Made by a program: the position numbers and the translations under genes. From Slackia sp. ZJ119 (GTDB lineage Bacteria; Actinomycetota; Coriobacteriia; Coriobacteriales; Eggerthellaceae): a DNA stretch of 64,000 nt. A model generated the notes under the pieces. It had not been told where the DNA came from. It searched no databases and saw nothing but the letters and a program-made list of their open reading frames with translations. The stretch's first letter is position 1. Each line of letters starts with the position of its first letter. The DNA lies in NCBI RefSeq assembly GCF_011039175.1, contig NZ_JAAKEN010000014.1:1-64000 (forward strand), in the 5' to 3' direction. This document shows, in pieces, positions 4,892 through 27,903 of the stretch.

Positions 4892-5114
4892 GGAGTGCTC
4901 GGGAGATAGTTGGTATTTAATACAGAGCAAGTACGAAAGCAGAATCAGCAAGCAAGCAAGCTGCCACAGCGAAGAACCCGCTATACTGTGCGTCCTAAAC
5001 ATCTTGAGAAATCAAACAAGCGCTTGTTTTCCAAAATAGCAGTACTAAGTACGGAAGTAGAACATGTCCACCTACTCACATCCCCAAAAAGCATCCGACC
5101 GAAAAGGACCGTCC

Positions 5115-11865: not shown

Positions 11866-13089
11866 TCACTTCCAGCGAGGCAGCGGGGCGAGGGCGCGGG
11901 CCAGCATGTCGTGGGCACGCGCGATGACCATGCCGTAGTTGGTGAAGGGGACGCCCTGCTCGCGGGCACGCTGGAGGCGGGAGGCCATCTCTCGCGCGCT
12001 CAGCATGCAGCCGCCGCAGTGGACCACGGCGGCGTAAGGGCTCAGGTCGGCGGGAAAGTCGCGGCCCGACGTGAAGGCGAACCGCGGGTTCGCGCCGCTG
12101 ATCTCGCGGATCCAGACGGGCAGCTTCACGGTGCCGATGTCGTCGCACTGGCGATGGTGCGTGCAGCCCTCGGCGATGAGCACGACGTCGGCGTCGGCGA
12201 GGCGCTCAAGCGCCCGCACCGCCTCAAGCTGCGCGGGAAGGTCGCCTTTGTAACGCGCCATGAGGATGGAAAACGAGGTGAGGGGCACGTCGGCGGGAAG
12301 CAGCGCATCCACGGCGCCGAACGCCTGGGAATCGGTCACGACCAGGCGCGGAGGCGCGGGCAGCTTCTCCAGCAGCGTCGGCAGCATCTCGGTGCCCGTG
12401 GCGCACGGAAAGGCCCCGGCCGCGAGCACGTCGCGCATCACCTGCTGCTGGGGCAGGATGATGCGTCCTTTCGGAGCGCCCGAGTCGAGCGGGATCACCA
12501 GCACCGCCACATCACCCGGGGCGAGCAGGTCGCCCACGAGCCGGCGCTCGTTTTTTGTGCAGGTGATCAACGCCGCCAGCACGCCCTTGAGGTCGACCAC
12601 GCCGGCGCCAGTCGTCGCCGAGGTGCGCACGCGGCCTCTGCGGCAGCCCGCATCGTCTTTTTCCAGCGCGACGGCAGCCGCAGAGCCCTCTTCCAAAAGA
12701 TCGCCCTTGTTCTCGGCGATCACATAGGGGACGTTGCGCTTCTGAAAGGCACGCACGAGCGACTCGTCAAACGAGGCAAGCCCGCGCGTCGCATCAACGA
12801 CGAGCACGGCCACGTCGGCCTCGTCGAGCGCAGCGAGGGCACGCTGCACGCGCAGATCGCCCACGCGCCCCGCATCGTCGATGCCCGGCGTGTCCACAAT
12901 GAGCACCGGGCCGGCCGGCAGAAGCTCCATGGCCTTGCGCACCGGGTCGGTGGTGGTGCCCGGCGCGTCCGACACGACGGCCGTCTCCTGGCCGGTCACG
13001 GCGTTGACCAGGCTCGATTTCCCGACGTTGCGCACGCCGAAGAACACGATGTGCGTGCGCTCTCCAGAGGGGGCGTCGTTGAGGCCCAT
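11866..13089 (-). CDS. hydF: [FeFe] hydrogenase H-cluster maturation GTPase HydF
   Basis: A 407-residue scaffold GTPase on which the 2Fe subcluster is assembled before transfer to HydA. The P-loop GVRNVGKS is at residues 18-25, followed by DAPGTTTDPV (switch) and VDTPGIDD (G3). The C-terminal cluster-binding motif is intact: CTHH near residue 310 and HCGGC about 50 residues later. The start follows GGAAAGGAGCTCCC. It is the last gene of the ten-gene minus-strand cluster, 24 bp after hydG, and palindromic copy B follows its stop codon. Confidence 0.96.
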   Translation of the reverse strand: MGLNDAPSGERTHIVFFGVRNVGKSSLVNAVTGQETAVVSDAPGTTTDPVRKAMELLPAGPVLIVDTPGIDDAGRVGDLRVQRALAALDEADVAVLVVDATRGLASFDESLVRAFQKRNVPYVIAENKGDLLEEGSAAAVALEKDDAGCRRGRVRTSATTGAGVVDLKGVLAALITCTKNERRLVGDLLAPGDVAVLVIPLDSGAPKGRIILPQQQVMRDVLAAGAFPCATGTEMLPTLLEKLPAPPRLVVTDSQAFGAVDALLPADVPLTSFSILMARYKGDLPAQLEAVRALERLADADVVLIAEGCTHHRQCDDIGTVKLPVWIREISGANPRFAFTSGRDFPADLSPYAAVVHCGGCMLSAREMASRLQRAREQGVPFTNYGMVIARAHDMLARALAPLPRWK

Positions 13090-13113
13090 GGGAGCTCCTT
13101 TCCCGGAAACAGG

Positions 13114-14559
13114 CTAAAAGCGGAAGTCGCGCTCGCCCTCGCGGATGCGGGCCAAAAAGGCGGCAGCCGATTCGCGGCGGCGCTCGTCGGGCATGCGGGC
13201 CAGCTCGGCGTCGATCATCGCCCACCCCTTCCGCGCCACTTCGGAGCTGGCGTAGTCGCTCAGGTATTCGGCCAGGGTGAGCAGGGCGTTCGGTTGGCAA
13301 TAGTCCGAAATCAGACCGCTTTTGCAAAACTCCATGAAGCGGTCGCCCGTGCGGCCGGCGCGATAGCACGCCGTGCAGAAGCTGGGGATATGCCCTTCGT
13401 CCATGAGCCAGCCGACGACCTCGTCCAAGGTGCGCTGGTCCGACACGTCGAACTGCTCGGTGTCGTGGGGGCGCTCGGCTTCCGTATAGCCGCCCACGCT
13501 CGTGCGGCTGCCGCCGGAGATCTGCGAAATGCCCAGTTGAAGCGCACGGGCGCGCATGCTTTCGGACTCGCGGGTGGAGATGATCATGCCCGTGTAGGGC
13601 ACCGCGATGCGGATGAGCGCGATGATCTTCTCGAACACCTCGTCGGAAACGCCGCCCTCGAAGGCGCCCGGGTCGATGTCGCTTGCCGGCTGCACGCGCG
13701 GCACGCTGATGGTGTGCGGCCCCACCCCGAAGACGGCCTCCAGGTGCTCGGCGTGCATGAGCAGCCCGGCGAACTCGTAGGCGTATCCCTCCAGGCCGAA
13801 CAGCACGCCAAGCCCCACGTCGTCTATGCCGGCCGCCATGGCGCGATCGTGCGCCTCGGTGTGCCACGCGTAATCGGATTTCGGGCCGATGGGATGCAGC
13901 CGCTCGTAGCAGCTGCGCCGGTAGGTCTCTTGGAACAGGATGTACGTGCCGATTTCGGCGGCCTTCAGCTGGCGATAGGCGTCCTCCGTGGCAGCTGCGA
14001 TGTTCACGTTCACGCGACGGATGGCGCCGTTTCTGTGGCGCGTGCCGTAGATGGTCTGGATGCTCTCCAGGATATAGTCGAGCGGGTTGTGGCGCGGGTC
14101 CTCGCCCGCTTCCACGGCAAGGCGCTTGTGGCCCGCGTCCTGCAGCGCCAGCACCTCGGCGCGAATCTCGTCCTGCGTGAGCTTGCGTCGGGGAATGTCG
14201 CGGTTTTTCGCATGGTAGGGGCAGTACAAACAGCCGTTCACGCAGTAGTTGGACAGGTAGAGCGGCGCGAACAGCACGATGCGGTTGCCGTAGTAGGCCT
14301 GCTTGATGTCGCGGGCGAGCTGGCGGATTTCCGCGTTGACCTGCGCGTCTTCGCAGGCGAGCAGCACGCTGGCCTCGCGGTGGGAAAGCGCGGCGCCGTG
14401 GTCGCGGGCCGGCGCGAGGTTCGCACGGGCCTTGCGCAGGATGGCGCGGGCCAGCTCCACGTCGTCTTTGCGGGCCTCGGCAAAGGCCAAGGTGTCGAGG
14501 ATTTCCTCATGGTTGACGAACTCGTCGGCATGGGGAGAGCGCACGTCGTATCGAGGCAT
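13114..14559 (-). CDS. hydG: [FeFe] hydrogenase H-cluster radical SAM maturase HydG
   Basis: A 481-residue tyrosine lyase that makes the CO and cyanide ligands of the H-cluster. The radical SAM motif is CVNGCLYC (Cys106, Cys110, Cys113). The second, HydG-specific cluster motif CX2CX22C is present at the C-terminus (CTACYR...SDYC). Length fits the family (about 470). The start at 14559 follows AAAGAAGG; a longer frame from 14619 lacks a ribosome site. hydF is 24 bp downstream, and hydA ends 192 bp upstream. No hydE is present in the window. Confidence 0.96.
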   Translation of the reverse strand: MPRYDVRSPHADEFVNHEEILDTLAFAEARKDDVELARAILRKARANLAPARDHGAALSHREASVLLACEDAQVNAEIRQLARDIKQAYYGNRIVLFAPLYLSNYCVNGCLYCPYHAKNRDIPRRKLTQDEIRAEVLALQDAGHKRLAVEAGEDPRHNPLDYILESIQTIYGTRHRNGAIRRVNVNIAAATEDAYRQLKAAEIGTYILFQETYRRSCYERLHPIGPKSDYAWHTEAHDRAMAAGIDDVGLGVLFGLEGYAYEFAGLLMHAEHLEAVFGVGPHTISVPRVQPASDIDPGAFEGGVSDEVFEKIIALIRIAVPYTGMIISTRESESMRARALQLGISQISGGSRTSVGGYTEAERPHDTEQFDVSDQRTLDEVVGWLMDEGHIPSFCTACYRAGRTGDRFMEFCKSGLISDYCQPNALLTLAEYLSDYASSEVARKGWAMIDAELARMPDERRRESAAAFLARIREGERDFRF

Positions 14560-14751
14560 GAAAACCTTCTTTCTTGTGGTCGCCCCAATCGGCCGCCGAA
14601 CGGCGGCCAAAAGGCGCAAGGCGGCTTTTCGGGGCCGCCCGGCGCCGGGGCCCGCCGCCGTCCGTTTCGCTTGGCCAAGGCGGCCGGCGGCGGGAGACGC
14701 TGGCCGGCGCCGCCCTGCGAACCCAGGGCCGGCAGGATCAAGCGGCGCCCT

Positions 14752-16491
14752 TTAGATCTGCCAGCTTTCCTGGTCGGTGTGCAGCCATGCGTGGGCCGTG
14801 TGCGACAGGGGCGCATCCAGCCAATCGGCGTACAGCTTCTGGATGTCGGGATTTTCGTGGGAGCAGCGCAGCGCGTCGGCGGCGTCCAAGCGGTTCAGGA
14901 TGTCGGCGCGGAAGGCGCCCCGTTCGCTGTTGAAGTGGATGGGCTGCCCGCCGCCGGCCACGCACCCGCCGGGACACGCCATGATCTCCACGAAATCGAA
15001 GGACGCCTCGCCGGACTCAAGGGCCTCCAGAAGCTTCGCGGTGTTTTCAAGGCCGCTTGCGACGGCGACGCGCACCGTAGTGCCGCCGATGACCAGCTCG
15101 CGGGACATCCAAGGCACTTCAGGCGTGGCCGCCGTGGTGTCGCATGCGCTGAAATCGGGGTTTTTGCCGGTGACGAGGAAGGCCGCCGAGCGCAGGGCCG
15201 CCTCCATCACCCCGCCGGTGCGCCCGAAGATGGTGCCCGCGCCCGTAGAGGTGCCCAGCGGGTTGTCGAACGCCGTCTCGGGCAAATCGGCGCAGTTCAC
15301 GCCCACCGTGCGCAGCAGGCGGTCGAACTCGCGCACCGTGAGCACCGCGTCCACGTCGGGCACGGCCTTCGCGATGTTGTCGCCGCCGGCCGGCGCCGTG
15401 GCGAGCTCGGGCACGGCGCACTCGTACTTTTTGGCGACGCACGGCATGACGGACACGCAGAACAGCCGCTTGCCCGCCGCAGCGGCCTCGTCTGCAAGCG
15501 TGTTCTTCACCACGGCGCCCATCATCTGGTGCGGCGACTTCGAGCTGGAAAGCTGTGCGGCGAGGTGCGGACGGTGCAGCTTCACGAAGCGCACCCAGCC
15601 CGGACAGCAGCTCGTGAACAAAGGCCGCGGCTTGTCGGAGCCGAGAAACTCCACGAACTCGCTGCCCTCTTCCATGATGGTGAGGTCGGCGGCGAAATCG
15701 GTGTCGAAGGCCTTGTCGAAGCCGAGCGCGTGCAAAGACGCGGCCAAGCGCCCCGGCGTGGCCTCCTCGTGCGAAAGCCCCACGCCCTCGCCCCAGGCCG
15801 CACGCACGGCCGGCGCCACCTGCGCGACCGTCATCACCGCAGGGTCGAGGATGGCTTCAAGGACGCGGTCGGTGTCGTCGCGCGCCGTCAAGGCGCCGGT
15901 GGGACAGTGGGTGACGCACTGGCCGCAAAGCGTGCAGCCGGCCTTGGAAATGGGCAGGCCGTCGCGCACGACGACCTTCATGGAAGGCCCCGCGCCGGTG
16001 AAGTCCCACACGCCGCAGTGCTGCACCTCGCGGCAGACGGCCACGCAGCGCATGCACTTGATGCACTTCGAGGCGTCGCGCTGCAGCGGAAACGCCTCGT
16101 CCCAGGCGCCCTTCTCCGGAAGCGGCCCTGGAGAGTCGGCCAGGTTGCAGTCGGCGGCCAGACGGCGCAGCGCACAGGTGTCCTGGCGAACGCAGGCAGC
16201 GCACACGGCGCGATGCCCGTCCATGACGGCCTGCAAGTTGGCACGACGTGCGGCGGCTGCGGCGGGCGCGTCGGTGCGCACGACCATGCCGTCCCGAACG
16301 GCGGTGTTGCACGAGGCCACAAGCCCCTCGCCTTCCACTTCCACCAAACACGCGCGGCACGAGCCGATGCAGTTCAGGCCCTTCAGGTAGCACAGCGTGG
16401 GAATGTCGACACCGGCCCGGGCGGCGGCGTCTACAAGCATCGTGCCCGCCGGCGCCTCTACGGGCCGGCCGTTCAGCGTGATCGTTACCAT
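14752..16491 (-). CDS. hydA: [FeFe] hydrogenase catalytic subunit HydA (M3-type, with ferredoxin domains)
   Basis: A 579-residue hydrogenase. In order it has a 2Fe-2S domain (Cys34, Cys41, Cys45, Cys48, Cys61 region), an HxxxCxxC-type cluster site near residues 93-106, two 4Fe-4S motifs (CIKCMRCVAVC at 143-153 and CTLCGQCVTHC at 186-196), and the H-cluster domain. The H-cluster motifs are canonical: TSCCPGW (293-299), MPC (349-351) with KKYEC, and IMACPGGCVAGGG. It produces or consumes H2 in the cytoplasm. It overlaps the upstream flavoprotein gene by 7 bp, so the two are probably subunits of one NAD(P)H-linked enzyme. Confidence 0.95.
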   Translation of the reverse strand: MVTITLNGRPVEAPAGTMLVDAAARAGVDIPTLCYLKGLNCIGSCRACLVEVEGEGLVASCNTAVRDGMVVRTDAPAAAAARRANLQAVMDGHRAVCAACVRQDTCALRRLAADCNLADSPGPLPEKGAWDEAFPLQRDASKCIKCMRCVAVCREVQHCGVWDFTGAGPSMKVVVRDGLPISKAGCTLCGQCVTHCPTGALTARDDTDRVLEAILDPAVMTVAQVAPAVRAAWGEGVGLSHEEATPGRLAASLHALGFDKAFDTDFAADLTIMEEGSEFVEFLGSDKPRPLFTSCCPGWVRFVKLHRPHLAAQLSSSKSPHQMMGAVVKNTLADEAAAAGKRLFCVSVMPCVAKKYECAVPELATAPAGGDNIAKAVPDVDAVLTVREFDRLLRTVGVNCADLPETAFDNPLGTSTGAGTIFGRTGGVMEAALRSAAFLVTGKNPDFSACDTTAATPEVPWMSRELVIGGTTVRVAVASGLENTAKLLEALESGEASFDFVEIMACPGGCVAGGGQPIHFNSERGAFRADILNRLDAADALRCSHENPDIQKLYADWLDAPLSHTAHAWLHTDQESWQI

Positions 16492-18323
16492 CTCTCCTGG
16501 TCCTTCCCCGTCAGAGCGCCGATGCCGTACACGTCGCAGCGCAAGCAGCGCCTGCATTCCTGGGCCGCTTCCTCGCCGCTCACGGGCAGTTCCACGCACG
16601 CGAAGTCGCGTCTGCGCTCGCGGGCCGGACGCTCGGCCACCTGCACGCGCCCGTAAGGCGTGCGGTCGTTGAGACGCGCCGGCGGGACCTCGGCGCCGCA
16701 GTCGAGCGCGTGGCGAAAGCCCAGCGCCTCGTCGATGTTCGCAGCGGCCGTCTTGCCGGCGGCGATGGCCATGATGACCGTCTTGGGGCCCCACTGGCAA
16801 TCGCCGCCCACGAACACGTTGTCGAACCCGGGCGCACGCAGAAACTCGTCGGCGCACAGGCGCGTGCGGTCGGCCTGCATGCCGAACTCCTCGAAAGGAG
16901 CGCCCTCGATGGCCTGGCCCACGGCGATGAGGACGACGTCGGCGGGAATGCGCAGCTCAGGCTTGTCGGCGGGCACCGGCGCAGGCCGGCCGCGGCGCAC
17001 CTCCCCGATGCGCTGGGGGCGGCACGCCAAGGCGCACGCGTGGCCGTCGGCGTCCGTCTCGACGCGTTCGGGGGCCTGCAGGCACATCATCTCCACGCCC
17101 TCGGCGATGGCGGCCTCCACTTCGACGGCCAAAGCCGTCATGTCCTCCAGGCGCCGGCGATAGGCCACCGTGACCGACGCGGCCCCGGCCCGCACGCTTG
17201 TGCGGGCGCAGTCCATCGCCACGTTGCCGCCGCCGACGACGACCACGTTTTTGCCGGTGAAGTCCGGATAGTCGTCGTCGCCGATGCGGCTCAAAAGGTC
17301 GACGGCGCTCATGACGCCTGCCGCGTCGGCGCCGGGCAGGTCGAGCATCTTGCCGCCCTGTGCGCCGACGGCCACGTACACGGCGTCGCAGCGGCTGGAC
17401 AGGCGTTCCATCTCGGCGGCGTCGACCGGGCTTTCCGTCTTCACCTCAACGTTGGGCAGCGAGCAGATGGCGCGCAGGTCCTCGTCGAGCCGCTCGCGCG
17501 GAAGGCGGTAGGCGGGAATGCCGTAGCGCATCATGCCGCCAAGCCGCTTGCGCCCCTCGTGCACGGTCACGTCGTGCCCCATGAGGGCGAGGAAGTACGC
17601 GCAGGTAAGGCCGGAGGGGCCGCCGCCCACCACGGCCACGCGCTTGCCCGTGGAGGGCAGCGGGCGCGGCACCGGCACCGCGTCGGCGGCCACGCTGTCC
17701 ACGACGTGCTTCTTGATGCCGCGGATGTTCACCGGCGCGTCCACCATCGTGCGGCGGCAGTGCGCCTCGCAGGGATGTTCGCACACGAGCGCACACGCCG
17801 TGGGAAACGGGTTATCCTTGCGTATCATCTTGACGGCCTCGTCGCAGCGCCCCTCTCCCGCCAGCGCGATATAGGCCGGGATGTTCACATGGGCCGGGCA
17901 CTGCGTCGCGCACGGCACGGTCTGGCGCGTGCCCGCCGCGCACGCGCCTGCCTGCACGTGGCTGGCAAACTCGTCGGCAAAGGCGTCAAGCCCGGCCAGC
18001 AGCGTTTCGGCGGCCTGCCACCCCACGGCGCAGTCGCCCGTGTCGCGCAGCAGCTCGGCTGCGCGGCGCAGCTCGACGAGCGTGCGCTCGTCGGCGCGAA
18101 ACTGCTCCACGTCCTGCAGCAGCCGCTCCATCTTCGGCATGCCCTGCGCACATGGCGTGCACTTTCCGCAGGTCTGCGCCCGGGCGACCTGCAGCTGGCC
18201 GAGCACCAGGCTCACCGGGCACATGCCCGGCGGCATGGCCTCCACGCGGCGGGCGAGCGCCGCCGCGAACTCTCCCACGCGCCCGTCGGCTGTGGCCGCG
18301 GGCTTGACAGACAAACGACCCAT
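16485..18323 (-). CDS. NuoF-C-terminal/GltD-type fused NAD(P)H flavoprotein, hydrogenase partner
   Basis: A 612-residue fusion. Residues 1-150 match only the C-terminal 4Fe-4S part of NuoF/HydB (TCGKCTPCAQGMPKMERLL, then DCAVG); the FMN/NADH-binding part of NuoF is absent. The rest is a GltD/NfnB-type module: the HVNIPAYI and CEHPCEAHC cluster region, an FAD motif VAVVGGGPSGLTCAYFLALMG, an NAD(P) motif VVVVGGGNVAMDCARTS and the FVGGDCQWGPKTVIMAI end. A cysteine-rich tail (CRRCLRCDVYGIG) closes the protein. It most likely exchanges electrons between NAD(P)H and HydA; whether it bifurcates cannot be read from sequence. The start follows GAGAAAGAGAAACCG. Confidence 0.88.
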   Translation of the reverse strand: MGRLSVKPAATADGRVGEFAAALARRVEAMPPGMCPVSLVLGQLQVARAQTCGKCTPCAQGMPKMERLLQDVEQFRADERTLVELRRAAELLRDTGDCAVGWQAAETLLAGLDAFADEFASHVQAGACAAGTRQTVPCATQCPAHVNIPAYIALAGEGRCDEAVKMIRKDNPFPTACALVCEHPCEAHCRRTMVDAPVNIRGIKKHVVDSVAADAVPVPRPLPSTGKRVAVVGGGPSGLTCAYFLALMGHDVTVHEGRKRLGGMMRYGIPAYRLPRERLDEDLRAICSLPNVEVKTESPVDAAEMERLSSRCDAVYVAVGAQGGKMLDLPGADAAGVMSAVDLLSRIGDDDYPDFTGKNVVVVGGGNVAMDCARTSVRAGAASVTVAYRRRLEDMTALAVEVEAAIAEGVEMMCLQAPERVETDADGHACALACRPQRIGEVRRGRPAPVPADKPELRIPADVVLIAVGQAIEGAPFEEFGMQADRTRLCADEFLRAPGFDNVFVGGDCQWGPKTVIMAIAAGKTAAANIDEALGFRHALDCGAEVPPARLNDRTPYGRVQVAERPARERRRDFACVELPVSGEEAAQECRRCLRCDVYGIGALTGKDQERW

Positions 18324-18451
18324 CGGTTTCTCTTTCTCTGTTTTGCATAATCGATATAGCATACCAGCGAATCGGGCGGATTGCGTTGCGGATTTGTAAA
18401 TGAACCCTCTTGCCCCCTCAACGGCAGCCGTCGGTGCCAGTCGGCGTTTTC

Positions 18452-18745
18452 CTAGCCGTAACGATACTGCACGCCGCATCCAGCCGCAGGGTTCACCCAC
18501 TTCTCGACGATCGTGTCGCCGCAGACGATGCGGCACGTCCCGCACTCAAGGCAGCCCGAATAGTCGAACCGCTTCGCGCCGTCGGCCTCGATCTTGTAAA
18601 GCGCCGCCGGGCACACGCGCACGAGCTTCAGGAACTCCGCGTCGTCCGGGTCGTCCACAAGGACGATGTGGGCCTGGTCGTCGGGCTCGTACTTGTTGAC
18701 CGCCAGGCATTTGTCAACGTTCACGGTGATCTTCACATCGCTCAT
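18452..18745 (-). CDS. fixX: FixX-type ferredoxin-like protein
   Basis: A 97-residue ferredoxin-like subunit of the FixABCX complex. The cluster ligands are in RVCPAALY and SGCLECGTCRIVC. With FixC it links the ETF pair to ferredoxin or quinone. The start codon at 18745 overlaps the fixC stop by 4 bp (ATGA), so the two are translationally coupled. A 128-bp gap separates it from the NuoF/GltD gene downstream. Confidence 0.93.
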   Translation of the reverse strand: MSDVKITVNVDKCLAVNKYEPDDQAHIVLVDDPDDAEFLKLVRVCPAALYKIEADGAKRFDYSGCLECGTCRIVCGDTIVEKWVNPAAGCGVQYRYG

Positions 18746-20040
18746 AGCGCCTTGCACGCTCCCCTCACGTCCCTCAAGATGTTCATGTAGCCCATCTTCT
18801 TCACCTCCGGCAGCACGGAATCTTTCACGTGCTTGGCGGGGCTGCCGTCGATGACGAACATGTTGTTCATGACGTCGCGCACCATTTCCGGATATCCGCA
18901 GAACATGCGGTCGAAGTGCTCGAGGAATTCCGGCTCCGCGGAAAACGAGCGCAGGTCCTTCATGACGAAGGACTCTTCGAGCATGTCCTGATAGCAGGAA
19001 AGCCCCCTCGCGCTCACGTCCCCTGCGTCAAGCGCGCGCACGGCCGCCTTTCCCGCCATCTGACCGGCGGCGACGGCATAGTCCATGCCGCGCACCGCAT
19101 AGCCGAAGTTTATGCACATCATGGCCGACTCGCCGGCGACGAGCACGCCGTCGCCCACGAGCTTCGGCATGATGTGCAGGCCGCCTTCCGGAACCATGTG
19201 GCCGGAATGCTCGACGAGCTCGCCGCCTTCGATGAGCGCCGCGATGCCCGGGTGGCTCTTCAGCTCTTCCATCATCTGGCAGATGGGATACTCGCTTTTC
19301 GACACGGCTTCGATTCCCGCCACGATGCCAAGCGACACCGACTCGCGGTTCGTGTACATGAACCCGCCGCCGAACTTTCCCTTCGTCGCGTCCCCGGCGA
19401 TGAGCATCGCCACGCCTTCGCCGTCCGACGTCACGAGGCACCGGTCGCTGATGGTCTTCGCCGGCAGCGCGAACGTCTGCTTGATCCCGACGGCGATCGC
19501 CGACGCGGGAGGCCTCTTGTAGCCGACCGCCTGCTCGGTGAGCAGCGAGTTCACCCCGTCGCACAGAATGACGACGTTCGCAGTGATCTCGTCTTCGCCC
19601 GCCCGGATGCCGATGACGGCGCCGGCGTCGTCTTTCACCACCTCTTCGACGGGGATGCCGCAGATGTATTCCGCGCCGGCCTCTTCGGCCTGGTCGGCAA
19701 GCCACTGGTCGAACGGCCCGCGCAGCACCGAGTACGAGTCGTTGTCGGTGCGCATGGCGTCGCTGCTGAAGTCGATCGTGAACTCGGCGTCCGGGGCCAT
19801 CAGCATGATCTTCTCGCGCACGATGCGGCGCTCAAGGGGCGCGGTCGCCAACGTGTCGGCGTCGAACACCTTGCGCAGCGGGTGCATATATATGCGTCCG
19901 CCAGTCATGTTTTTCGAGCCCGCCGCATCGCCACGCTCCACGACGAGCACCGATTTGCCCGCGCGAGCCAGCTCAAGCGCCGCTATGGGACCGGCGCAGC
20001 CCGATCCGACGACGATGGCGTCGAAATCCCTTTCCTCCAT
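18742..20040 (-). CDS. fixC: FixC-type ETF-quinone oxidoreductase
   Basis: A 432-residue flavoprotein with an N-terminal FAD motif (DAIVVGSGCAGPIAALELARAG), SKNMTGGRIYMHPL and the C-terminal GVLVAGESAMMCINFGYAVRGMDYAV segment diagnostic of FixC. It accepts electrons from reduced ETF (FixAB) and passes them on with FixX. The start follows GAAAGAAGGGTTTGAC. It lies 87 bp after fixB. Confidence 0.94.
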   Translation of the reverse strand: MEERDFDAIVVGSGCAGPIAALELARAGKSVLVVERGDAAGSKNMTGGRIYMHPLRKVFDADTLATAPLERRIVREKIMLMAPDAEFTIDFSSDAMRTDNDSYSVLRGPFDQWLADQAEEAGAEYICGIPVEEVVKDDAGAVIGIRAGEDEITANVVILCDGVNSLLTEQAVGYKRPPASAIAVGIKQTFALPAKTISDRCLVTSDGEGVAMLIAGDATKGKFGGGFMYTNRESVSLGIVAGIEAVSKSEYPICQMMEELKSHPGIAALIEGGELVEHSGHMVPEGGLHIMPKLVGDGVLVAGESAMMCINFGYAVRGMDYAVAAGQMAGKAAVRALDAGDVSARGLSCYQDMLEESFVMKDLRSFSAEPEFLEHFDRMFCGYPEMVRDVMNNMFVIDGSPAKHVKDSVLPEVKKMGYMNILRDVRGACKAL

Positions 20041-20127
20041 GTCAAACCCTTCTTTCCTTCCTCGGTGCAAAACCCGGCCCGGCGAAATCGGGAAGCGGCC
20101 CGACTTCGCGGGCGCCTGGCCTTCGGC

Positions 20128-21030
20128 CTACTTGAACGCTTCGGTCAACGCCGGGACCACGTCGAAGAGGTCGCCCACGATCCCGTACTTGCAGCAGTTG
20201 AAGATTTCGGCGTCGGGGTCGTTGTTCACGGCCACGGCGGTCTTGGCGTCGCGGAAGCCCGACGTGTGGTTCGGCGAGCCGGAAATGCCCAGCGCGATGT
20301 AGAGGTCGGGTGAAGCGGTGTTGTGCGACGACCCGAGCACGCGCTCGGACGGATACCAGCGCATGTCGTCGCAGCAAGGAAGCGTGCAGGCGATCTCGGC
20401 GCCCATGGCGTCGACGAGCGCGTCGACCAGGGGCAGGTTGTCACGCGCGGCCAAGCCCATGCCAACGCCCACCACGCGCGACGCGGTGGCAAGCCCCGTG
20501 CCGGCCGCTTCCTCAAAGCCGACGACGCGGTCTTCGACGGAGGGAGCGTCCGCGCATTCGACGGCAGCCGCAGGACCTTCGGCCGGATCGGCGTCCGGCC
20601 CCGTGTAGATGCACGCCATCTTCGACGCCGACACGGCCTCGATCGCCTTCGCGTTGGCTACCAGGTTGTCGGCGACCACGTTGTCGCCGTCCAGGGCCAG
20701 CGCCTGCACGTTGCCGACGACCGCCGCGTCCAGAGCGCCCGCCGCCGCGCCCAAGATGCAGCGGGCGGCGCCCGAATCGTTCGACAGCACCAGATCGGCG
20801 CCGTCGGCCGCGACGAACTCGGCCACGCACGGCCCCAGCGCTTCGACGGGGACGTCGTCGGAGGCGGCGAACGAGACGACGCGGTCGACCCCGTACGACG
20901 CGACCTCGTTGGCCACGTCGGCCGATCCCACGGCAGCGACGGAAACGCTGTCGCTCACGCGCCGCGCCGCGTCGATGATGCCGCCCAAACGGCGGGACTC
21001 CGTTGCAATGATCCACGCTTTCTTTCCCAT
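20128..21030 (-). CDS. fixB: Electron transfer flavoprotein alpha subunit, FixB
   Basis: A 300-residue ETF alpha subunit. The C-terminal FAD domain is clear: VVGVGMGLAARDNLPLVDAL, then LGSSHNTASPDLYIALGISGSPNHTSGF and VAVNNDPDAEIFNCCKYGIVGD. The usual TRP..D/GQTG residues of this domain are partly changed (SSHNTAS in place of SRQVG/GQTG types), as in FixB-like anaerobic ETFs. It lies 36 bp after fixA and forms the heterodimer with it. Confidence 0.93.
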   Translation of the reverse strand: MGKKAWIIATESRRLGGIIDAARRVSDSVSVAAVGSADVANEVASYGVDRVVSFAASDDVPVEALGPCVAEFVAADGADLVLSNDSGAARCILGAAAGALDAAVVGNVQALALDGDNVVADNLVANAKAIEAVSASKMACIYTGPDADPAEGPAAAVECADAPSVEDRVVGFEEAAGTGLATASRVVGVGMGLAARDNLPLVDALVDAMGAEIACTLPCCDDMRWYPSERVLGSSHNTASPDLYIALGISGSPNHTSGFRDAKTAVAVNNDPDAEIFNCCKYGIVGDLFDVVPALTEAFK

Positions 21031-21066
21031 AGTTCAGTCACTCCTGTCGGTGTTCGCAGATTGCCG

Positions 21067-21795
21067 TTACAAAACGCCCTCGCCGCGCAGCGCATCCATC
21101 AGCTGCGCAACGGCGTTCGACGGATCGGAGCCGTCGAAGATGATCGCAGCGTCGCCCTCGGGCAGGCGCGTGCCGGCGCTCGTCCCGACGCCTGCCGCAA
21201 CGCCCAGGCTGGCGACGCTTTCCTTCGCCACCGGCTTTTTTCGGGCGGCGAGCGTCTGCTTCATGCCCGGCACGTTCGCCTCTTGGCTGAGCGCCTGCGC
21301 GGCGACGACCATCGGGGGCTTCGCCAGCACGATGCGGTTTCCGGCCGGAGTCTTTATCGTGAGGCGCACGTCGTCGCCCTCGGCCTGGGCGGCCGTCACG
21401 TTCGCGTACGCCTTCCAGCCAAGCGCCCCGACCAGCGCCGACACGACCCCGCGGTCCCAGTCGGAATCGCCGATCGCCACGACGTCGACGTCCCCTGCGC
21501 TCTTCACCGCCGCAGCGATCGCTCGCGCGGCGGCGGTGCCGTCGGGCCCGCCGAACGCGTCTTCCACAACGACCGTGCTCGCAGCGCCGCGGGCCGCCGC
21601 CCATTCCGGCTTTCCGTCCCCGATGGTGACGCCCACGATGTCCTCTTCGGCCGAGACGCCCCTGGCGACGTCCATGGCCGCAGGGTCGTCTTCGGTCGGC
21701 GACAGCTTCACCCCAGGCCACGACACCGCCCCGTCCGCCGAGACGCGCGCATCCTGCGGGTCCTTGCACCACTTGAACACCACTGCTGTTTTCAT
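21067..21795 (-). CDS. fixA: Electron transfer flavoprotein beta subunit, FixA
   Basis: A 242-residue ETF beta subunit. The N-terminus KTAVVFKWCKDPQDARV and the block VVAIGDSDWDRGVVSALVGALGWKAYANV match the family. The C-terminal regulatory loop is shortened. The start at 21795 (MKTAV) was preferred over an upstream frame start at 21831 because ETF beta proteins begin with this strand. A strong hairpin lies in the 144-bp gap upstream, after the FAD reductase gene. Confidence 0.92.
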   Translation of the reverse strand: MKTAVVFKWCKDPQDARVSADGAVSWPGVKLSPTEDDPAAMDVARGVSAEEDIVGVTIGDGKPEWAAARGAASTVVVEDAFGGPDGTAAARAIAAAVKSAGDVDVVAIGDSDWDRGVVSALVGALGWKAYANVTAAQAEGDDVRLTIKTPAGNRIVLAKPPMVVAAQALSQEANVPGMKQTLAARKKPVAKESVASLGVAAGVGTSAGTRLPEGDAAIIFDGSDPSNAVAQLMDALRGEGVL

Positions 21796-21830
21796 ATTCG
21801 CTCCAATCTCGCTGACGTGCGATTCGACCA

Positions 21831-21857
21831 AGCCCTCCGACAGGCTTTCGGAGGGCT
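21831..21857 (-). promoter_or_regulatory. Hairpin between the FAD reductase and fixA
   Basis: A perfect 10-bp stem (AGCCCTCCGA with TCGGAGGGCT) with a 7-base loop lies in the leader between the reductase stop and the fixA start. No U-tract follows in the transcription direction, so it is not a textbook terminator. A second, weaker stem (about 21868-21900, GGGCTCCCG/CGGGAACCC) is next to it. Both may set the relative expression of reductase and ETF genes by RNA processing or stability. Confidence 0.5.
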
Positions 21858-21939
21858 AACAAGAAGGGCTCCCGCCTCTGCCCATGCGAAACGGGAACCC
21901 CGAAAGAAAAGAGACTGCAGCGACGAGCCGCAGCCGGCT

Positions 21940-23421
21940 TTACGCCAGCGTCGAGATGATGTGACGCGCCGCCAAACGACCCGACGTGTGGGCGAAGCCG
22001 TTGGCGGTGCCCGGAACGTCCAGGTTGTACGTGTCGCCGAACAGGCCCGTCGCCTCCATGCCGACGGCGTACAGGCCAGGAATGGCCACGTAGTCCTTGT
22101 CGGTCACCTGGAAGTTGCCGTTGATGCGGATGCCGCCGCACGACACCAGAATCGACGGACGCTGCTTGGTCGCGTAGAACGGAGCCTTGCGAACGGGCTG
22201 CAGGAACTTCGTGGGCTTCATGAACTCGTCGTCCTTGCCGGCGTCGCACGCCTCGTTGTACTTCTCGACAACGGCCTTGAACGTCTCGGCGTCGACGCCC
22301 ATCGCCTCGGCGAGGCCTTCGATGGTGTCGGCCTTGAACGCCGCGCCGTCGGGAATGGCTTCCTCGATTTCAGCGCGCAGCGTGGGCATGGTCTTGTGGA
22401 TCGGAATGAAGTCGCCCAGGCCGACCGCAGAACCGGTGCCGGACTCGAGCCGGGTCACGGTGTCTTCGTCCATGACGGAGAACACGATGCCGTCGTCGCG
22501 CATGGCGATGGTGTTGCCGGTGTCGGCGAAGCTGTTGGCCACGGCCTCGTTGCAGAAGCGCTTGCCCTTCGTGTCGACCCACAGGTTGGGCTGATAGCCC
22601 GCGCCGTTGATGCCCGAGCCGAGCGTGCGGCCCTCGGTGCAGCCGATGATCATGAGTGCGCCGATGTCCTTCAGGTGGGCGCCGACCGACTCGGCCATGC
22701 GGATGCCGTCGCCGGTGTTCTGCGTCGGCACCGACTGGTAGTGGTTCTTGTGGATGTTGGGGATCCAGCTGTACTTCTCGACCATTTCCATGTTGTTGCC
22801 GAAACCGCCGGTGGCGAGCACGACGGCCTTCGCGCCGATGCGCATCTCGTTGCCGTCGGCATCCTTCGCGACGACGCCGACGATCTTGCCGTCCTCGGTG
22901 ATGAGCTCCTGGGCGGGCGTGTTCGTGAAGATGTCGACCCCGGCGTTCACGCAGGCACGCTCCAGCAGGTCCTGGCAGTGCTGGCCCAGGCCCTCGGGGC
23001 GATGGAACGTGTACAGCTCGGCAGGCTGGTCGAACGCGTAGATGGTCACGTCGGTGTACTCGATGCCGAGGCCCTTGTAGATGTCGATGGTCTCAGAAGA
23101 GTTGTACGCGAACGCCTTGGCGACCTCGACGTTGGCACGATGGTGGCTGTAGTCGATGTAGCGCTGCACGTGCTCTTCGTGCGTGGGGAAGTGAGCGCCC
23201 TCGGGAAGCTCGCCCGGATAGTCCGGGTGGGGACGGGCGGCCTGCTCGGACGACTCGGAAGCGCACGTGCCCTCGGCGTAGATCGACGAACCGCCGCAGT
23301 TCTCGAGCTTCTCGAGCACGCAGACGGAAAGGTCGCTCTCGGTCGCGATGGTGTATGCGGCAGACTTGCCCGATCCGCCGCCGCCGATGCACACGACGTC
23401 GTATTCAACATCAAAAGCCAT
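21940..23421 (-). CDS. FAD-dependent reductase, fumarate reductase/ketosteroid dehydrogenase superfamily (soluble)
   Basis: A 493-residue FAD_binding_2 protein. The dinucleotide motif is YDVVCIGGGGSGKSAAYTIA, with ENCGGSSIYAEGT, ATGGFGNNMEMV and a C-terminal IPGLYAVGMEATGLFGD. It has no Tat signal, no FMN-binding domain and no heme domain, unlike exported Eggerthellaceae fumarate-reductase-like enzymes, so it acts in the cytoplasm. The NRLGGN loop with the substrate-binding arginine of true fumarate reductases is replaced by YNLDVPGTANG, arguing for a different substrate. The neighbouring FixABCX and SDR genes suggest reduction of an enone- or enol-type compound. Tetrahydrodaidzein reductase-like enzymes are one comparison; the substrate is unproven. 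Confidence 0.8.
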   Translation of the reverse strand: MAFDVEYDVVCIGGGGSGKSAAYTIATESDLSVCVLEKLENCGGSSIYAEGTCASESSEQAARPHPDYPGELPEGAHFPTHEEHVQRYIDYSHHRANVEVAKAFAYNSSETIDIYKGLGIEYTDVTIYAFDQPAELYTFHRPEGLGQHCQDLLERACVNAGVDIFTNTPAQELITEDGKIVGVVAKDADGNEMRIGAKAVVLATGGFGNNMEMVEKYSWIPNIHKNHYQSVPTQNTGDGIRMAESVGAHLKDIGALMIIGCTEGRTLGSGINGAGYQPNLWVDTKGKRFCNEAVANSFADTGNTIAMRDDGIVFSVMDEDTVTRLESGTGSAVGLGDFIPIHKTMPTLRAEIEEAIPDGAAFKADTIEGLAEAMGVDAETFKAVVEKYNEACDAGKDDEFMKPTKFLQPVRKAPFYATKQRPSILVSCGGIRINGNFQVTDKDYVAIPGLYAVGMEATGLFGDTYNLDVPGTANGFAHTSGRLAARHIISTLA

Positions 23422-23518
23422 AGTTAACCTCATTTCTCAACGATTGCAACAACACAACGATGCGCGCCCTGTGCGCCGCGCCCGCAGACGGCATGCCCGC
23501 GCACGGGGCGCTTGAATC

Positions 23519-24277
23519 CTAGTGGGCCGTCTGACCAGCGTCGACGGCGACGATGGCAGCGCCCATGAACGACGCCTCGTCGGAAGCCAGGAAGGCCGCC
23601 ACCGTGGCGATCTCGGACGGATCGGCGATGCGGTTCTGCCAGTTGTAGCTGGACACGAGCGCCTTCATCTCGGGGTCGTCCATCCAGCCCTGGGTCATCT
23701 CGGAAGCCACGAAGCCCGGCGCGATGCCGTTGACGCGAACGCCCTTGCCCGCGTACTCGATGCCGGCAGCCCTCGTGAGGCCGACGACGGCATGTTTCGC
23801 GGCGACGTAGGGAGCCATGCCCGGATCGGCGACGAGACCGGCGACCGAGCAGATGTTGACGACGGCGCCGCCGCCCGCCTCGAGGATGGCGGGGATGCCG
23901 TACTTCATGCCTAGGAACACGCCCTTCACGTCGACGTCCATCGTGTGGTCGAAGTCCTCGACCGTCTGGTCGACCAGGTCGCGCGTCGGGGGAAGCGAGC
24001 CGGCGTTGTTGACGAGCACGTCGAGCTTGCCGTACGCCTCGACCGTCTTCGCGATGAGGTTCTTCACGTCCTCTTCGTTGGCGACGTCGCAGTTGATGGT
24101 GATCGCCTCGCCGCCAGCGGCCTTGATGGCCTCGACGGTGTCAGTGCAAGGACGCCGCCCGGCGCACACTACCTTGGCGCCGAGTTGGGCGAACTTCTTG
24201 GCCGTCGCCGCGCCGATGCCCGAACGGGCGCCGGTCACAATGACGACTTTTCCATCATAGTTGCACATGCCAGCCAT
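23519..24277 (-). CDS. Short-chain dehydrogenase/reductase (SDR)
   Basis: A 252-residue classical SDR. The cofactor motif TGARSGIG is at residues 15-22, followed by the NNAG motif (90-93). The active site has Ser144, Tyr157 and Lys161 (YVAAK). The usual catalytic Asn in the DVNLKG region is Asp117 here (DVDVKG). Arg18 and the AGRR segment after strand 2 favour NADP(H). It would interconvert a ketone and an alcohol; hydroxysteroid or dihydroflavonoid reductases are the closest functional types in this setting, by inference. The start follows AAAAGGAGCGTGAGCT. It is the first gene of the ten-gene operon-like cluster. Confidence 0.88.
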   Translation of the reverse strand: MAGMCNYDGKVVIVTGARSGIGAATAKKFAQLGAKVVCAGRRPCTDTVEAIKAAGGEAITINCDVANEEDVKNLIAKTVEAYGKLDVLVNNAGSLPPTRDLVDQTVEDFDHTMDVDVKGVFLGMKYGIPAILEAGGGAVVNICSVAGLVADPGMAPYVAAKHAVVGLTRAAGIEYAGKGVRVNGIAPGFVASEMTQGWMDDPEMKALVSSYNWQNRIADPSEIATVAAFLASDEASFMGAAIVAVDAGQTAH

Positions 24278-24615: not shown

Positions 24616-26181
24616 GTGTCACCCACATATGATCGGAAAGAAAAGAAACGCTCGTTTGCGGACAGCGCTCTTGCATTCCCCTCGTCGCTTTATTGGGCGT
24701 GGGCGATTCTGTCTCTGTTCTGCCCGCTGCTGTTCGAAGGATCGCAGCTCAGCCCCTGCGAATGCGAAACGTACTTCATCGTCTGCGCCTTTGCGGGAGG
24801 CGCCACCGCCTTCGCGTCGCACAAAAGCTCCAAGATCGCGCTGCGGTTCCTCTCGTCGCTCAAGACGGAAGCGGCCGTCGTCGGAGCAGCCTCCCTTGGA
24901 TCGGCGCTCATGCTCGCAGGCGCGTACGTGCACGCGTTGCCCTTGCTCATGGTCGGCGGCGTCGTCATCGGATGCACGAACACGTGCTTCGCCCTCGCAT
25001 GGGGCCGCATGTACGCGCAACGCGGATCGGAAACTTCGAGCATCGTCTTGTGCCTTGCGCTCGCCATCGGCATCGCGATTGCCGGCTTGGTCACCCTGCT
25101 GCCGTTTCCCGCCGCTGCCGCCTGCACCACGATCATGCCCGAAGCGATCGTCGGCCTTTTGGTCACGATCCGATCGATCGTCAGCGCGTCCCATGAAAAA
25201 GGCGGCTCGCAAGCGTGGGAGCAGGGCGAATCCATCGGCGGATCGGCCGTGTTCGTCACGCCCAAGAGCGAAACGTACGGGACGAGCACGGCCGAGCAGA
25301 TTTTCTGGAAAACGTCGCGCCTTGTTCTGGGCATGTCTCCGTCGTTGGCGGCGGCATGCGTGCTTTTGGGAGTCTGCGTCGGCTTTCTCAACGGACAGAT
25401 CCTCGCTTTGGGCGAGAACCCCCTTCTGTCGGACGCGTTCGCCTCTGCCCACCTTGTCACCCTCAGCATCGTCATGCTGGCTTTTTGGGCAAGCATGTTC
25501 TTCGCGCCGCGCATAGCCTCTTCTGTGCTCATGGTCGTTGCGGTTGCGGGTCTGGCAGGGTACCTTTGCGCTCCCGCCGCCGTGGCGGCAGGGCTTCCCA
25601 TTCCTGCCTATCTGCTGACGCTTCTAGGGCTTGCCGGGCTTTTCGTGGCGGTTTGGCTTGCCATGACCGAGCTGTCCTACGAGGTGGGAAACGACATCGC
25701 GGTGGGTCTGGGCGCCGGTCTGGCGCTGGCGGCGCTCGGAGCGGCGCTCGGCGCGACCTTGCACGTCGCATTCGGATTCGCCCCGGTCTCCGCCACGGGA
25801 AAAGACCTCGCGACCGGCGTGACCGGACTGCTTTACGCCTGTTCCATTCTGCTGTTGTTCGTCGGCAATTCCGAATTGTGGGGCCTTGTCAAGGAGTACG
25901 CGTTCATGACGCCCCGGTCCGCCAACTCCAACCACGACGACATGACGAGGTTTCGGCCCGACTTTGCGAATCGGGTCGGGCGCATTGCCGAAGAACACGG
26001 GCTGACCGAGCGCGAAAAGGAAGTCTTGTCCCTCCTGCTGACAGGTCGCAGCCGACCGCGCATCGCCGAGATACTCGTGCTGTCGGAAAACACCGTGAGC
26101 TCGCACATCCAGCATATCTACCGCAAGTTCGGCGTGCACAGCAACCAAGAGCTGCTCGACGACATCCTGAACGCGAAGTAA
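24616..26181 (+). CDS. LuxR family transcriptional regulator with multi-pass membrane domain
   Basis: A 521-residue protein. About 430 N-terminal residues form roughly ten to twelve hydrophobic helices, and the last 65 residues are a LuxR HTH: LTEREKEVLSLLLTGRSRPRIAEILVLSENTVSSHIQHIYRKFGVHS. This membrane-sensor/LuxR fusion is abundant in Eggerthellaceae, where members sit beside the reductase genes they control. The start is GTG after TGAGGTGATTTCGCA. It is divergent from the SDR-led cluster and followed by palindromic copy C. Confidence 0.9.
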   Translation: MSPTYDRKEKKRSFADSALAFPSSLYWAWAILSLFCPLLFEGSQLSPCECETYFIVCAFAGGATAFASHKSSKIALRFLSSLKTEAAVVGAASLGSALMLAGAYVHALPLLMVGGVVIGCTNTCFALAWGRMYAQRGSETSSIVLCLALAIGIAIAGLVTLLPFPAAAACTTIMPEAIVGLLVTIRSIVSASHEKGGSQAWEQGESIGGSAVFVTPKSETYGTSTAEQIFWKTSRLVLGMSPSLAAACVLLGVCVGFLNGQILALGENPLLSDAFASAHLVTLSIVMLAFWASMFFAPRIASSVLMVVAVAGLAGYLCAPAAVAAGLPIPAYLLTLLGLAGLFVAVWLAMTELSYEVGNDIAVGLGAGLALAALGAALGATLHVAFGFAPVSATGKDLATGVTGLLYACSILLLFVGNSELWGLVKEYAFMTPRSANSNHDDMTRFRPDFANRVGRIAEEHGLTEREKEVLSLLLTGRSRPRIAEILVLSENTVSSHIQHIYRKFGVHSNQELLDDILNAK

Positions 26182-26644: not shown

Positions 26645-27015
26645 TGCCGACCTCCTGTCCGTCACACGTTCAAAAACGGCTCCAGACTAGCCCACGCCTG
26701 CCTGCGACGCATCCTCGCAAATCAGTGAACCTCCCCGACGCTCCCATGATCTTTCCCGCGCTGCAAAGGCACGCTGCCGGCCCAAGCGCACGGCAAACGC
26801 AACCAACGGCGCCAAGGAAACGGGCGTTTGCCCTTGTCAAAGACCTCATTGGTTTCCGGTGAAGGCAAATCCGCCAGAAATCAGTGAAATTTCCCGGCAG
26901 AATCGTTCGTTTCGCGCGTTGCTCGCGGCGCGGCCTCGGCGCAAGATGCGACGGGAAGGCTTCAAGGCCCTGTCCAACACGCCAGAGCACGACGAAAAGA
27001 AGCGAAGGAGCGCCT
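26645..27015. other. Divergent intergenic region between the ABM gene and the DMT transporter
   Basis: No gene is supported. Two similar strings, AAATCAGTGAA, occur about 160 bp apart (near 26719 and 26878), each followed by a C-rich tract; they may be paired regulator sites or chance. The right end holds the GCGAAGGAG ribosome site of the transporter. Confidence 0.3.
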
Positions 27016-27903
27016 ATGCCCGCATCAAAAGCCTGCTTGGCCCTGCCCGTTCTCGCAGGCGTCATGTGGGGCTCCATCGGCGTGTTCGTCCGCTTCCTCG
27101 ATGCCGGCGGCTTGGACAACGGAACCATCGTCTGCACGCGCATGATCGTGTCGAGCGTGATCCTTGGCGCGTTCATGCTCGCCACGGACAAGAGCTCCTT
27201 CAAGGTTCCCAAGCGGGCCGTTCCCGTTCTGATCGTGGGAGCCGTCGTCGGCAGCGCCTACATGAACATCGTGTACAACGTGGCGATCATGAACCTGAAC
27301 CTGGCTCTGTCCTCCGTGCTCATCGGCCTGTTCGCCATCTGGTCGCTGCTTCTCGGGCGCGTGCTGTTCGGCGAGGCTCTCACGAAGCGCAAGGTGGCCT
27401 GCGCGGCCGTCGCCCTGTTCGGCGTCGTGCTGATCAGCGGCGTGCTCGAGCAGGGAGCAGGCGCGTCGTTTTCCTGGTTCGGCCTGTTCATGGGGGTGTT
27501 GACGGGCATGATGTACGCCGTGAACGGAGCGACGACACGCGCGATGGGCAACTGGGGCATGAAGGCGTCGACGATCAACTTCTGGTACTTCGCCATTGGA
27601 TCCGTTTCGCTTCTGCCCCTGTGCCACTGGGACCAGGTTGTCTCGTACGTGGCGGCAGATCCCCTCGCGAGCAGCTTCTGGCTGATCAGCCAAGCGGTGG
27701 TGTGCGCCATCCTGCCCTACGTGTTCTTCGCCATGGCACTCGCGAGGATGGACATGGGCACGGCGTCAACCCTCGAGCTCGTCGAGCCCGCTGCGGCGAT
27801 GGTCTTCGGCCTTTTGCTGTTCGGAGAGGTCCCCACGCCCCTGATGGTCGTCGGCGTCGCGGTGGTCATAGCGGCCATTTCCCGCATCTACGCGAAAAAG
27901 TGA
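27016..27903 (+). CDS. DMT superfamily (EamA) transporter
   Basis: A 295-residue inner-membrane protein with about ten TM helices arranged as two EamA repeats. The first repeat begins LPVLAGVMWGSIGVFVRFL, and each repeat ends with the typical GE motif (LFGEALTKRKVACAAVALFGVVL and LLLFGEVPTPLMVVGVAVVIAA). Family members export or import metabolites such as amino acids, nucleosides or drugs; the substrate here is unknown. The ATG follows CGAAGGAGCGCCT; an upstream start at 26884 gives a non-homologous extension. Confidence 0.9.
   Translation: MPASKACLALPVLAGVMWGSIGVFVRFLDAGGLDNGTIVCTRMIVSSVILGAFMLATDKSSFKVPKRAVPVLIVGAVVGSAYMNIVYNVAIMNLNLALSSVLIGLFAIWSLLLGRVLFGEALTKRKVACAAVALFGVVLISGVLEQGAGASFSWFGLFMGVLTGMMYAVNGATTRAMGNWGMKASTINFWYFAIGSVSLLPLCHWDQVVSYVAADPLASSFWLISQAVVCAILPYVFFAMALARMDMGTASTLELVEPAAAMVFGLLLFGEVPTPLMVVGVAVVIAAISRIYAKK

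Follow-up and report, generated by a model that had tools for sequence, protein, structure and literature searches.

In Slackia sp. ZJ119, a gut-type bacterium, a run of ten genes on the minus strand was found to be a variant of the equol-type design, in which a reductase cassette with counterparts in three phyla is joined to an [FeFe] hydrogenase operon typical of the family Eggerthellaceae. The run occupies positions 11866-24277 of the window, by which we mean the whole 64,000-nucleotide stretch analysed (contig NZ_JAAKEN010000014.1, positions 1 to 64,000). The cassette consists of a short-chain dehydrogenase/reductase (SDR), an FAD reductase and FixABCX, and the hydrogenase half of an NAD(P)-linked flavoprotein, HydA, HydG and HydF. 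We give a probability of roughly one half to the reading that an inducible reductive cassette and an H2-driven, NAD(P)-loading hydrogenase module work here as one system.

Under this reading the two modules lie head to tail, with the inducible reductive cassette in front and the hydrogenase behind. The SDR, of NADPH type, would turn the ketone of an imported small molecule into an alcohol, and the FAD enzyme, supplied with electrons from NAD(P)H by way of FixABCX, would then take off that oxygen or the double bond next to it. The hydrogenase and its NAD(P)-linked flavoprotein would load the pyridine nucleotide pool from H2, and maturation of the hydrogenase would fall to HydF and HydG together with a distant HydE. 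Both the flow of electrons and its direction are what we infer from these genes, the Fix proteins being placed by family only (domain hits and trees).

Gene content of the cluster

An earlier note, made from the sequence alone, had listed the ten genes on one strand in the order SDR, FAD reductase, FixA, FixB, FixC, FixX, flavoprotein, HydA, HydG and HydF; open reading frame coordinates, domain hits and related loci agree with it, and neighbouring genes overlap or are separated by short gaps. Start codons were picked by inspection, every one being an ATG preceded by a stretch rich in purines. The SDR (252 aa, 23519-24277) and the FAD_binding_2 reductase (493 aa, 21940-23421) were identified from domain hits together with the trees and, for the latter, the structure model described below. 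FixA (electron-transferring flavoprotein (ETF) beta, 242 aa, 21067-21795) was assigned by homology to FixA of related loci and by its tree, and FixB (ETF alpha, 300 aa, 20128-21030) by its tree and by domain hits below NCBIfam cut-offs. Hits of the same kind, related loci and a tree identify FixC (ETF:quinone oxidoreductase-like, 432 aa, 18742-20040), and related loci identify the ferredoxin-like FixX (97 aa, 18452-18745), which overlaps FixC by 4 bp.

Beyond a junction of 128 bp (18324-18451), Pfam and NCBIfam hits define the NAD(P)-linked flavoprotein (612 aa, 16485-18323) and HydA, the hydrogenase catalytic subunit with a NuoG-like N-terminus (579 aa, 14752-16491). The former had been described as NuoF/GltD-type: the GltD type holds, and the NuoF part amounts to the 4Fe-4S iron-sulphur C-terminal domain PF10589 only. 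HydA passes the cut-off of the group-A subfamily TIGR02512 (422 versus 406 bits), lies under that of A6 (633 versus 765 bits), and carries the three H-cluster motifs, as TSCCPGW, MPCVAK and EIMACPGGCVAGGG. The genome holds no second full-length match to this HydA, the other match being a 68-bit piece. The maturases HydG (13114-14559) and HydF (11866-13089) were identified by NCBIfam equivalogs at 812 bits (cut-off 312) and 504 bits (cut-off 326), respectively. HydE is absent from the ten-gene cluster and the genome's HydE lies on another contig (G000:C23:25166-26179, 493 bits against a cut-off of 254.6), so that the route, earlier called complete-looking, is complete-looking for the genome and not for the cluster.

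By its combination of HydA with a GltD-type flavoprotein the cluster resembles HydDB [FeFe] group A2 (glutamate synthase-linked, putative). The rule described for that group is a downstream protein of GltD type with no NuoF domain (PMC5037454), whereas the GltD-type partner in the window lies upstream and carries the NuoF C-terminal domain.

Placement of the SDR and the FAD reductase

Judged by sequence trees, the SDR and the FAD reductase are not orthologues of the DHDR and THDR of the equol cluster. The SDR has the motifs TGARSGIG, GRR and S-12-Y-xxx-K, of which GRR would mean an NADPH-type enzyme. It is 29-32% identical to DHDR-type SDRs as against 45-59% to the other members of its clade, where it stands with the SDRs of 17 cassette loci (18 rows, SH-aLRT 99); those of DHDR type (11 rows) make up a clade apart, and those of loci L057 and L068 a third group. 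When 396 sampled genomes of the phylum were searched at E 1e-60, the window's own SDR was the sole match.

A reductase of the window's class (more than 460 bits) is present in 13 of 138 family genomes, that of ZJ119 included, the other listed matches all falling below 250 bits. Of the other 12 loci, ten are wholly or partly of equol type, and the two that are not belong to Adlercreutzia sp. ZJ304 (L032) and the metagenome-assembled genome (MAG) RUG13381 (L033). The window reductase is 48-51% identical to THDR-type sequences, 61% to that of ZJ304 and 57-63% to 11 cassette members. When 34 reductases were placed in a careful tree, those of THDR type (11 rows, including L054 of a Gracilibacteraceae MAG) came together in a 100/100 clade that excludes the window reductase, and a single clade of window reductase and THDR was rejected by the approximately unbiased (AU) test (p 0.0023). 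A quick tree with outgroups, and that tree only, pairs the window with ZJ304 (L070) at a support of 99. Neither of the two reductases falls in a clade that we could tie to a housekeeping function, an outcome that the earlier note had named as refuting its proposal. Since both differ from the reductases of the equol cluster, another small molecule is probably the substrate. Against the vinyl phenol reductase family VprA (NCBIfam NF053717) the window reductase scored 320 bits, under the cut-off of 600.

A recurrent cassette in three phyla

Named genomes were scanned with a single protein as query, which gave nothing, and with the family alignment A1 as query, which gave 34 loci: nine THDR-type, two fragments and 23 cassette-type, two of the last having a reductase truncated by the end of the contig. 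A gene for FixA or FixB lies near the reductase in 20 of the 23 cassette-type loci and FixC in 16, and an SDR 36-59% identical to the window's is found in 19, in 17 of which it belongs to the window's SDR clade. The hosts are members of the Bacillota, Actinomycetota and Pseudomonadota, and include Desulfosporosinus, Sporomusa, Pectinatus, Gracilibacteraceae MAGs, Sodalis and actinobacterial MAGs. Regulators near the cassettes differ (sigma-54 activator, PucR, LysR, LuxR), and the transporters near them are of the EamA, MFS or DASS type. The window's FixA and FixB group with those of the cassettes, and its FixC with those of ZJ304 and the sheep-ileum MAG L076 (support 93), beside the equol FixCs. 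An uncharacterised cassette of SDR, FAD reductase and FixABCX therefore recurs in three phyla, and on these comparisons the window's enzymes resemble those of the cassette. The open-access literature looked through held no report of it, which is weak evidence.

The hydrogenase half and its possible link to the cassette

Matches to the flavoprotein were present in 136 of the 138 family genomes and matches to HydA in 118, many of the latter to the first 200 residues only. Twenty stretches around hydrogenase matches were taken, of which 18 contain HydA and the flavoprotein. Within the sequence covered, which in some cases ends with the contig, none of the 18 has a Fix gene; an SDR is present in four (32-36%) and an FAD protein in one (28%), all of them distant, and 12 have HydE between HydA and HydG. 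By gene content, the hydrogenase half is thus a separate, free-standing operon common in Eggerthellaceae.

A tree of 26 concatenated HydA and flavoprotein pairs, seven of them from equol clusters, places the window sister to the free-standing operon of genome G078 (100/99), and groups the A. mucosicola equol-cluster pair with Adlercreutzia operons showing no Fix gene (100/99). A constraint holding the seven equol pairs together was rejected (AU p 4e-9), and the equol label requires six changes on the tree, a number as low being reached in 273 of 500 shuffles of the labels. The FixC of A. mucosicola groups with the FixCs of other equol clusters, and the two halves therefore differ in history. 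As far as these trees go, the hydrogenases of the equol clusters and of the window have no one exclusive common origin, and so would have been joined to cassettes, or swapped in place, more than once. Either way the pairing has been kept or re-made, and its apparent repetition favours a functional link to H2.

It is unlikely, though well short of negligible, that the two are mere neighbours, the cassette lying upstream of a hydrogenase operon with each transcribed and working separately. The free-standing hydrogenase operons of other genomes and the many cassettes without a hydrogenase are in keeping with this, as is the 128-bp junction, which has a GC content of 0.52 and an extended -10-like stretch, TGGTATGCTAT, noticed by eye and not called by the promoter scan. 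Over the region, promoter-like sites were no commoner than in shuffles (1 versus 1.2), and neither were terminator-like sites (7 versus 11.1). One of the latter was called in the gap between the reductase and FixA (21796-21939), which folds with a minimum free energy of -74.3 (z -4.58 against shuffles) into two strong hairpins, which may act as a partial terminator or mark a site of processing. Set against separate neighbours are the single strand, gene kinds that are those of equol clusters, and the occurrence of the pairing on unlike hydrogenase lineages. The equol run of A. equolifaciens is described as one transcript, every intergenic region being transcribed by reverse transcription PCR despite predicted internal terminators (PMC6566806). 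For the cluster in the window we infer co-transcription and induction, and the LuxR-family gene divergent to it (24616-26181, plus strand, 521 aa, GerE domain at residues 463-513) is likely its regulator.

Several observations weigh against a single system driven by H2. HydA lies near only one of the 23 cassettes, in a different complex with NrfD, and the flavoprotein partner near none of them. Adlercreutzia sp. ZJ304 (G011) has the cassette and no match to HydA or the flavoprotein, so H2 is not obligatory and is at most a partner in some lineages. The equol hydrogenase set includes one very divergent row (L065) that adds to its polyphyly, and the polyphyly itself could reflect gene replacement inside an inherited cluster. 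The careful tree gives the window reductase no resolved position among the non-THDR rows. Locus L057 is cassette-type by its reductase, yet its FixA, FixB and FixC are equol-type and its SDR lies outside the window's clade, so that cassette and equol types are not cleanly separate. The earlier description of the system as hydrogen-linked is qualified by the cassette of ZJ304 and by the hydrogenase being a separate operon common in the family.

Two further arrangements of hydrogenase genes were observed. In a Gracilibacteraceae MAG (L058:13749-17565) the cassette is followed by a PucR gene and then by an [FeFe] hydrogenase of a different kind, which has iron-sulphur and NrfD subunits. In genome G072 a hydrogenase operon within an equol-type cluster has a close relative that stands separately (loci L060 and L154).

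Active site, direction and substrate

The model of the FAD reductase (pLDDT 89.8) has the flavocytochrome c/urocanate reductase/ketosteroid dehydrogenase (KSTD) fold, with a TM-score of 0.78 by query length against 6t86, and cyclohexanone dehydrogenase and KSTD are among the structural matches. Active-site residues were compared in alignment A2, which comprises seven of the 11 THDR-type tree rows and 19 others including the window (26 in total). The reference column was that of Arg402 of flavocytochrome c3 (1e39), which we take to be the catalytic arginine of fumarate reductase in Fcc3 numbering; it was placed by residue counting in the 1e39 alignment, and titles of mutant structures also name Arg402. 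By hidden Markov model (HMM) alignment the window has Asn296 in this column; Glu occupies it in all seven THDR rows and in none of the 19 others, and the 18 other non-THDR rows include ten with Met and five with Leu. Tyr465 of the window is common to all 26 rows, and its match with Arg544, presumably the second substrate arginine, is not relied on (one HMM alignment; pLDDT below 50 at residues 462-467).

A role as fumarate or urocanate reductase was rejected: flavocytochrome c enzymes of this kind share the FAD_binding_2 fold, and the catalytic arginine is Asn296 in the window. With THDR, too, the fold family is shared, and the Glu of THDR is replaced by the same Asn. By this active-site signature the window enzyme belongs with neither the fumarate reductases nor THDR, and its substrate is likely different. 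Assignment as a steroid reductase or KSTD was also rejected, the common fold being its only basis. The protein begins directly at the FAD motif, so a secretion signal or a further redox domain is probably lacking. The review PMC10297411 gives THDR as a presumed S-adenosylmethionine enzyme; the THDR-type sequences compared here align over their full length with the window's FAD_binding_2 reductase.

Clues to the substrate come from neighbouring genes. In ZJ304 and L076 the cassette lies next to a molybdenum enzyme that has a small partner of iron-sulphur type, and the best solved relative of the molybdenum enzymes from both loci is acetylene hydratase, described as the nearest characterised kin of the catechol dehydroxylases (PMC7028382). 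These dehydroxylase-like neighbours and the kinship with THDR point to phenolic or cyclic ketones, and a plant phenolic or cyclic ketone is our best guess. Of the xenobiotic, steroid or polyphenol proposed earlier, the steroid is without specific support, and phenolics are indicated by the neighbours in these two relatives. In the ZJ304 locus (L070) the cassette has a molybdenum enzyme on either side (4395-6980 and 14838-17504); the two belong to one family and have small partners, and the one tested is acetylene-hydratase-like.

A real rival to the reductive reading is the reverse direction, in which a cyclic ketone, made from an alcohol by the SDR, would be desaturated by the FAD enzyme in the manner of cyclohexanone or 3-ketosteroid dehydrogenases. 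Quinone and ferredoxin would receive the electrons through FixABCX, and the hydrogenase would vent them as H2. We consider this doubtful. FixABCX is able to drain electrons, the fold matches to cyclohexanone dehydrogenase and KSTD would suit it, and the families ChcB (SDR) and ChcC (FAD) are among the NCBIfam hits, far under cut-off. The related characterised enzyme, THDR, is however described as catalysing a reductive step (PMC8898433, PMC10297411), and the dehydroxylase-like neighbours likewise favour reduction. H2 is said to stimulate equol formation (PMC10297411, PMC12610683).

Comparison with the equol cluster and other systems

The equol cluster of Eggerthellaceae is described as containing DZNR, DDRC, DHDR, THDR, fixABCX, nad_oxb, hndD and hydEGF (PMC8898433). 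It shares with the window an SDR, an FAD reductase, FixABCX, an NAD(P) flavoprotein, an [FeFe] hydrogenase and HydG/HydF in one run, which bears out the likeness of layout (fixABCX, NADH oxidoreductase, hndD, hydEGF) seen earlier. Its gene order is fixAB-THDR-DHDR-hyp-DZNR-fixCX (as in L040), whereas that of the window is SDR-reductase-fixABCX, and it has hydE, hydG and hydF together, where the window cluster has hydG and hydF only. We take the window flavoprotein to be the nad_oxb of the equol clusters. The earlier proposal of a related but possibly undescribed equol-like system accordingly holds for the layout, but the reductases resemble those of a wider cassette that mostly lacks this hydrogenase.

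The claim that daidzein reductase is missing was supported, as a DZNR query of the whole genome hit only the shared GltD-like domain of the cluster's flavoprotein (32%, query residues 378-537); the same query gave close matches in eight equol-type loci. In the eight genomes of nine cassette or THDR-like loci, some match to DZNR was obtained in every genome and no long match above 38% identity. For the racemase DDRC, a single search with the glyoxalase-fold protein of L066, presumed to be DDRC by its place and fold, gave no match and had no positive control. The conserved membrane protein of equol clusters had no tblastn match in the window, the protein itself being just 32-73% identical between loci.

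It is therefore highly improbable that the locus is an equol-type cluster stripped of DZNR and racemase that still reduces dihydrodaidzein or similar isoflavanones: the overall gene kinds and hydrogenase half are the same, and the equol-type locus L065 likewise has no DZNR match, but the reductase lies outside the THDR clade and has no active-site Glu, the SDR is not a DHDR, and DZNR was not found in the whole genome.

Departures from the usual equol pattern were seen at further loci. The full cluster is described as restricted to Eggerthellaceae (PMC8898433); outside that family, the Gracilibacteraceae MAG Ct408_bin101 (L054:3864-5807, L048:5373-6493) has THDR-type (63%) and DHDR-type (63%, 56%) proteins with FixA/FixB. 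In Slackia isoflavoniconvertens (L066:13110-15044) the DZNR-like protein is 43% identical to the query (S. equolifaciens 100%), though its THDR is at 87%. L065, from an uncultured Slackia, is equol-type (THDR 87%, DHDR 85%) and combines the missing DZNR match with an unusually divergent hydrogenase pair.

The carnitine system of E. coli (CaiA and FixABCX) offers a working analogy for FixABCX feeding a cytoplasmic flavin reductase. CaiA is an enzyme of acyl-CoA dehydrogenase type and its fold is unlike that of the window reductase. A tie between fixABCX and carnitine metabolism is described in PMC8898433.

Seen in this light, the equol cluster becomes one example of a modular layout, its front of SDR, FAD reductase and FixABCX being exchangeable and its hydrogenase back having been inherited separately. 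Should there be a functional reason for the repeated pairing, these bacteria would use H2 as a general reductant of small molecules. A more speculative extension, which we regard as improbable as a whole, is that at least three phyla possess a portable cassette for carbonyl deoxygenation (SDR, ketone to alcohol; FAD enzyme, alcohol or quinone methide to CH2; electrons via FixABCX). Equol DHDR/THDR would be one specialised offshoot of it, and gut Eggerthellaceae would repeatedly have plugged such cassettes into hydrogenase operons, letting H2 drive oxygen removal from plant phenolics. Outside Eggerthellaceae, named Sporomusa, Desulfosporosinus and Pectinatus strains that carry the cassette provide laboratory organisms in which the substrate could be found.

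Surroundings of the cluster

A clean insertion site was not seen in the same genus, the flanks of the cluster matching different contigs in genomes G134 and G135, and a reductase of this class was not found in the three same-genus genomes compared. The GC content of the cluster is 0.676, against 0.616-0.655 in adjoining parts; its GC content at third codon positions resembles that of its neighbours, and no case for a foreign origin could be made from composition despite the higher GC. Beyond the LuxR-family gene lies an EamA-type transporter gene recognised by its domain hit (26884-27903, plus strand), relatives of which (31-35%) adjoin the cassette in four Gracilibacteraceae loci (L047, L048, L064 and L072). 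Further along the window, a protein of the prismane/CO dehydrogenase family (PF03063) is encoded at 35327-36844.

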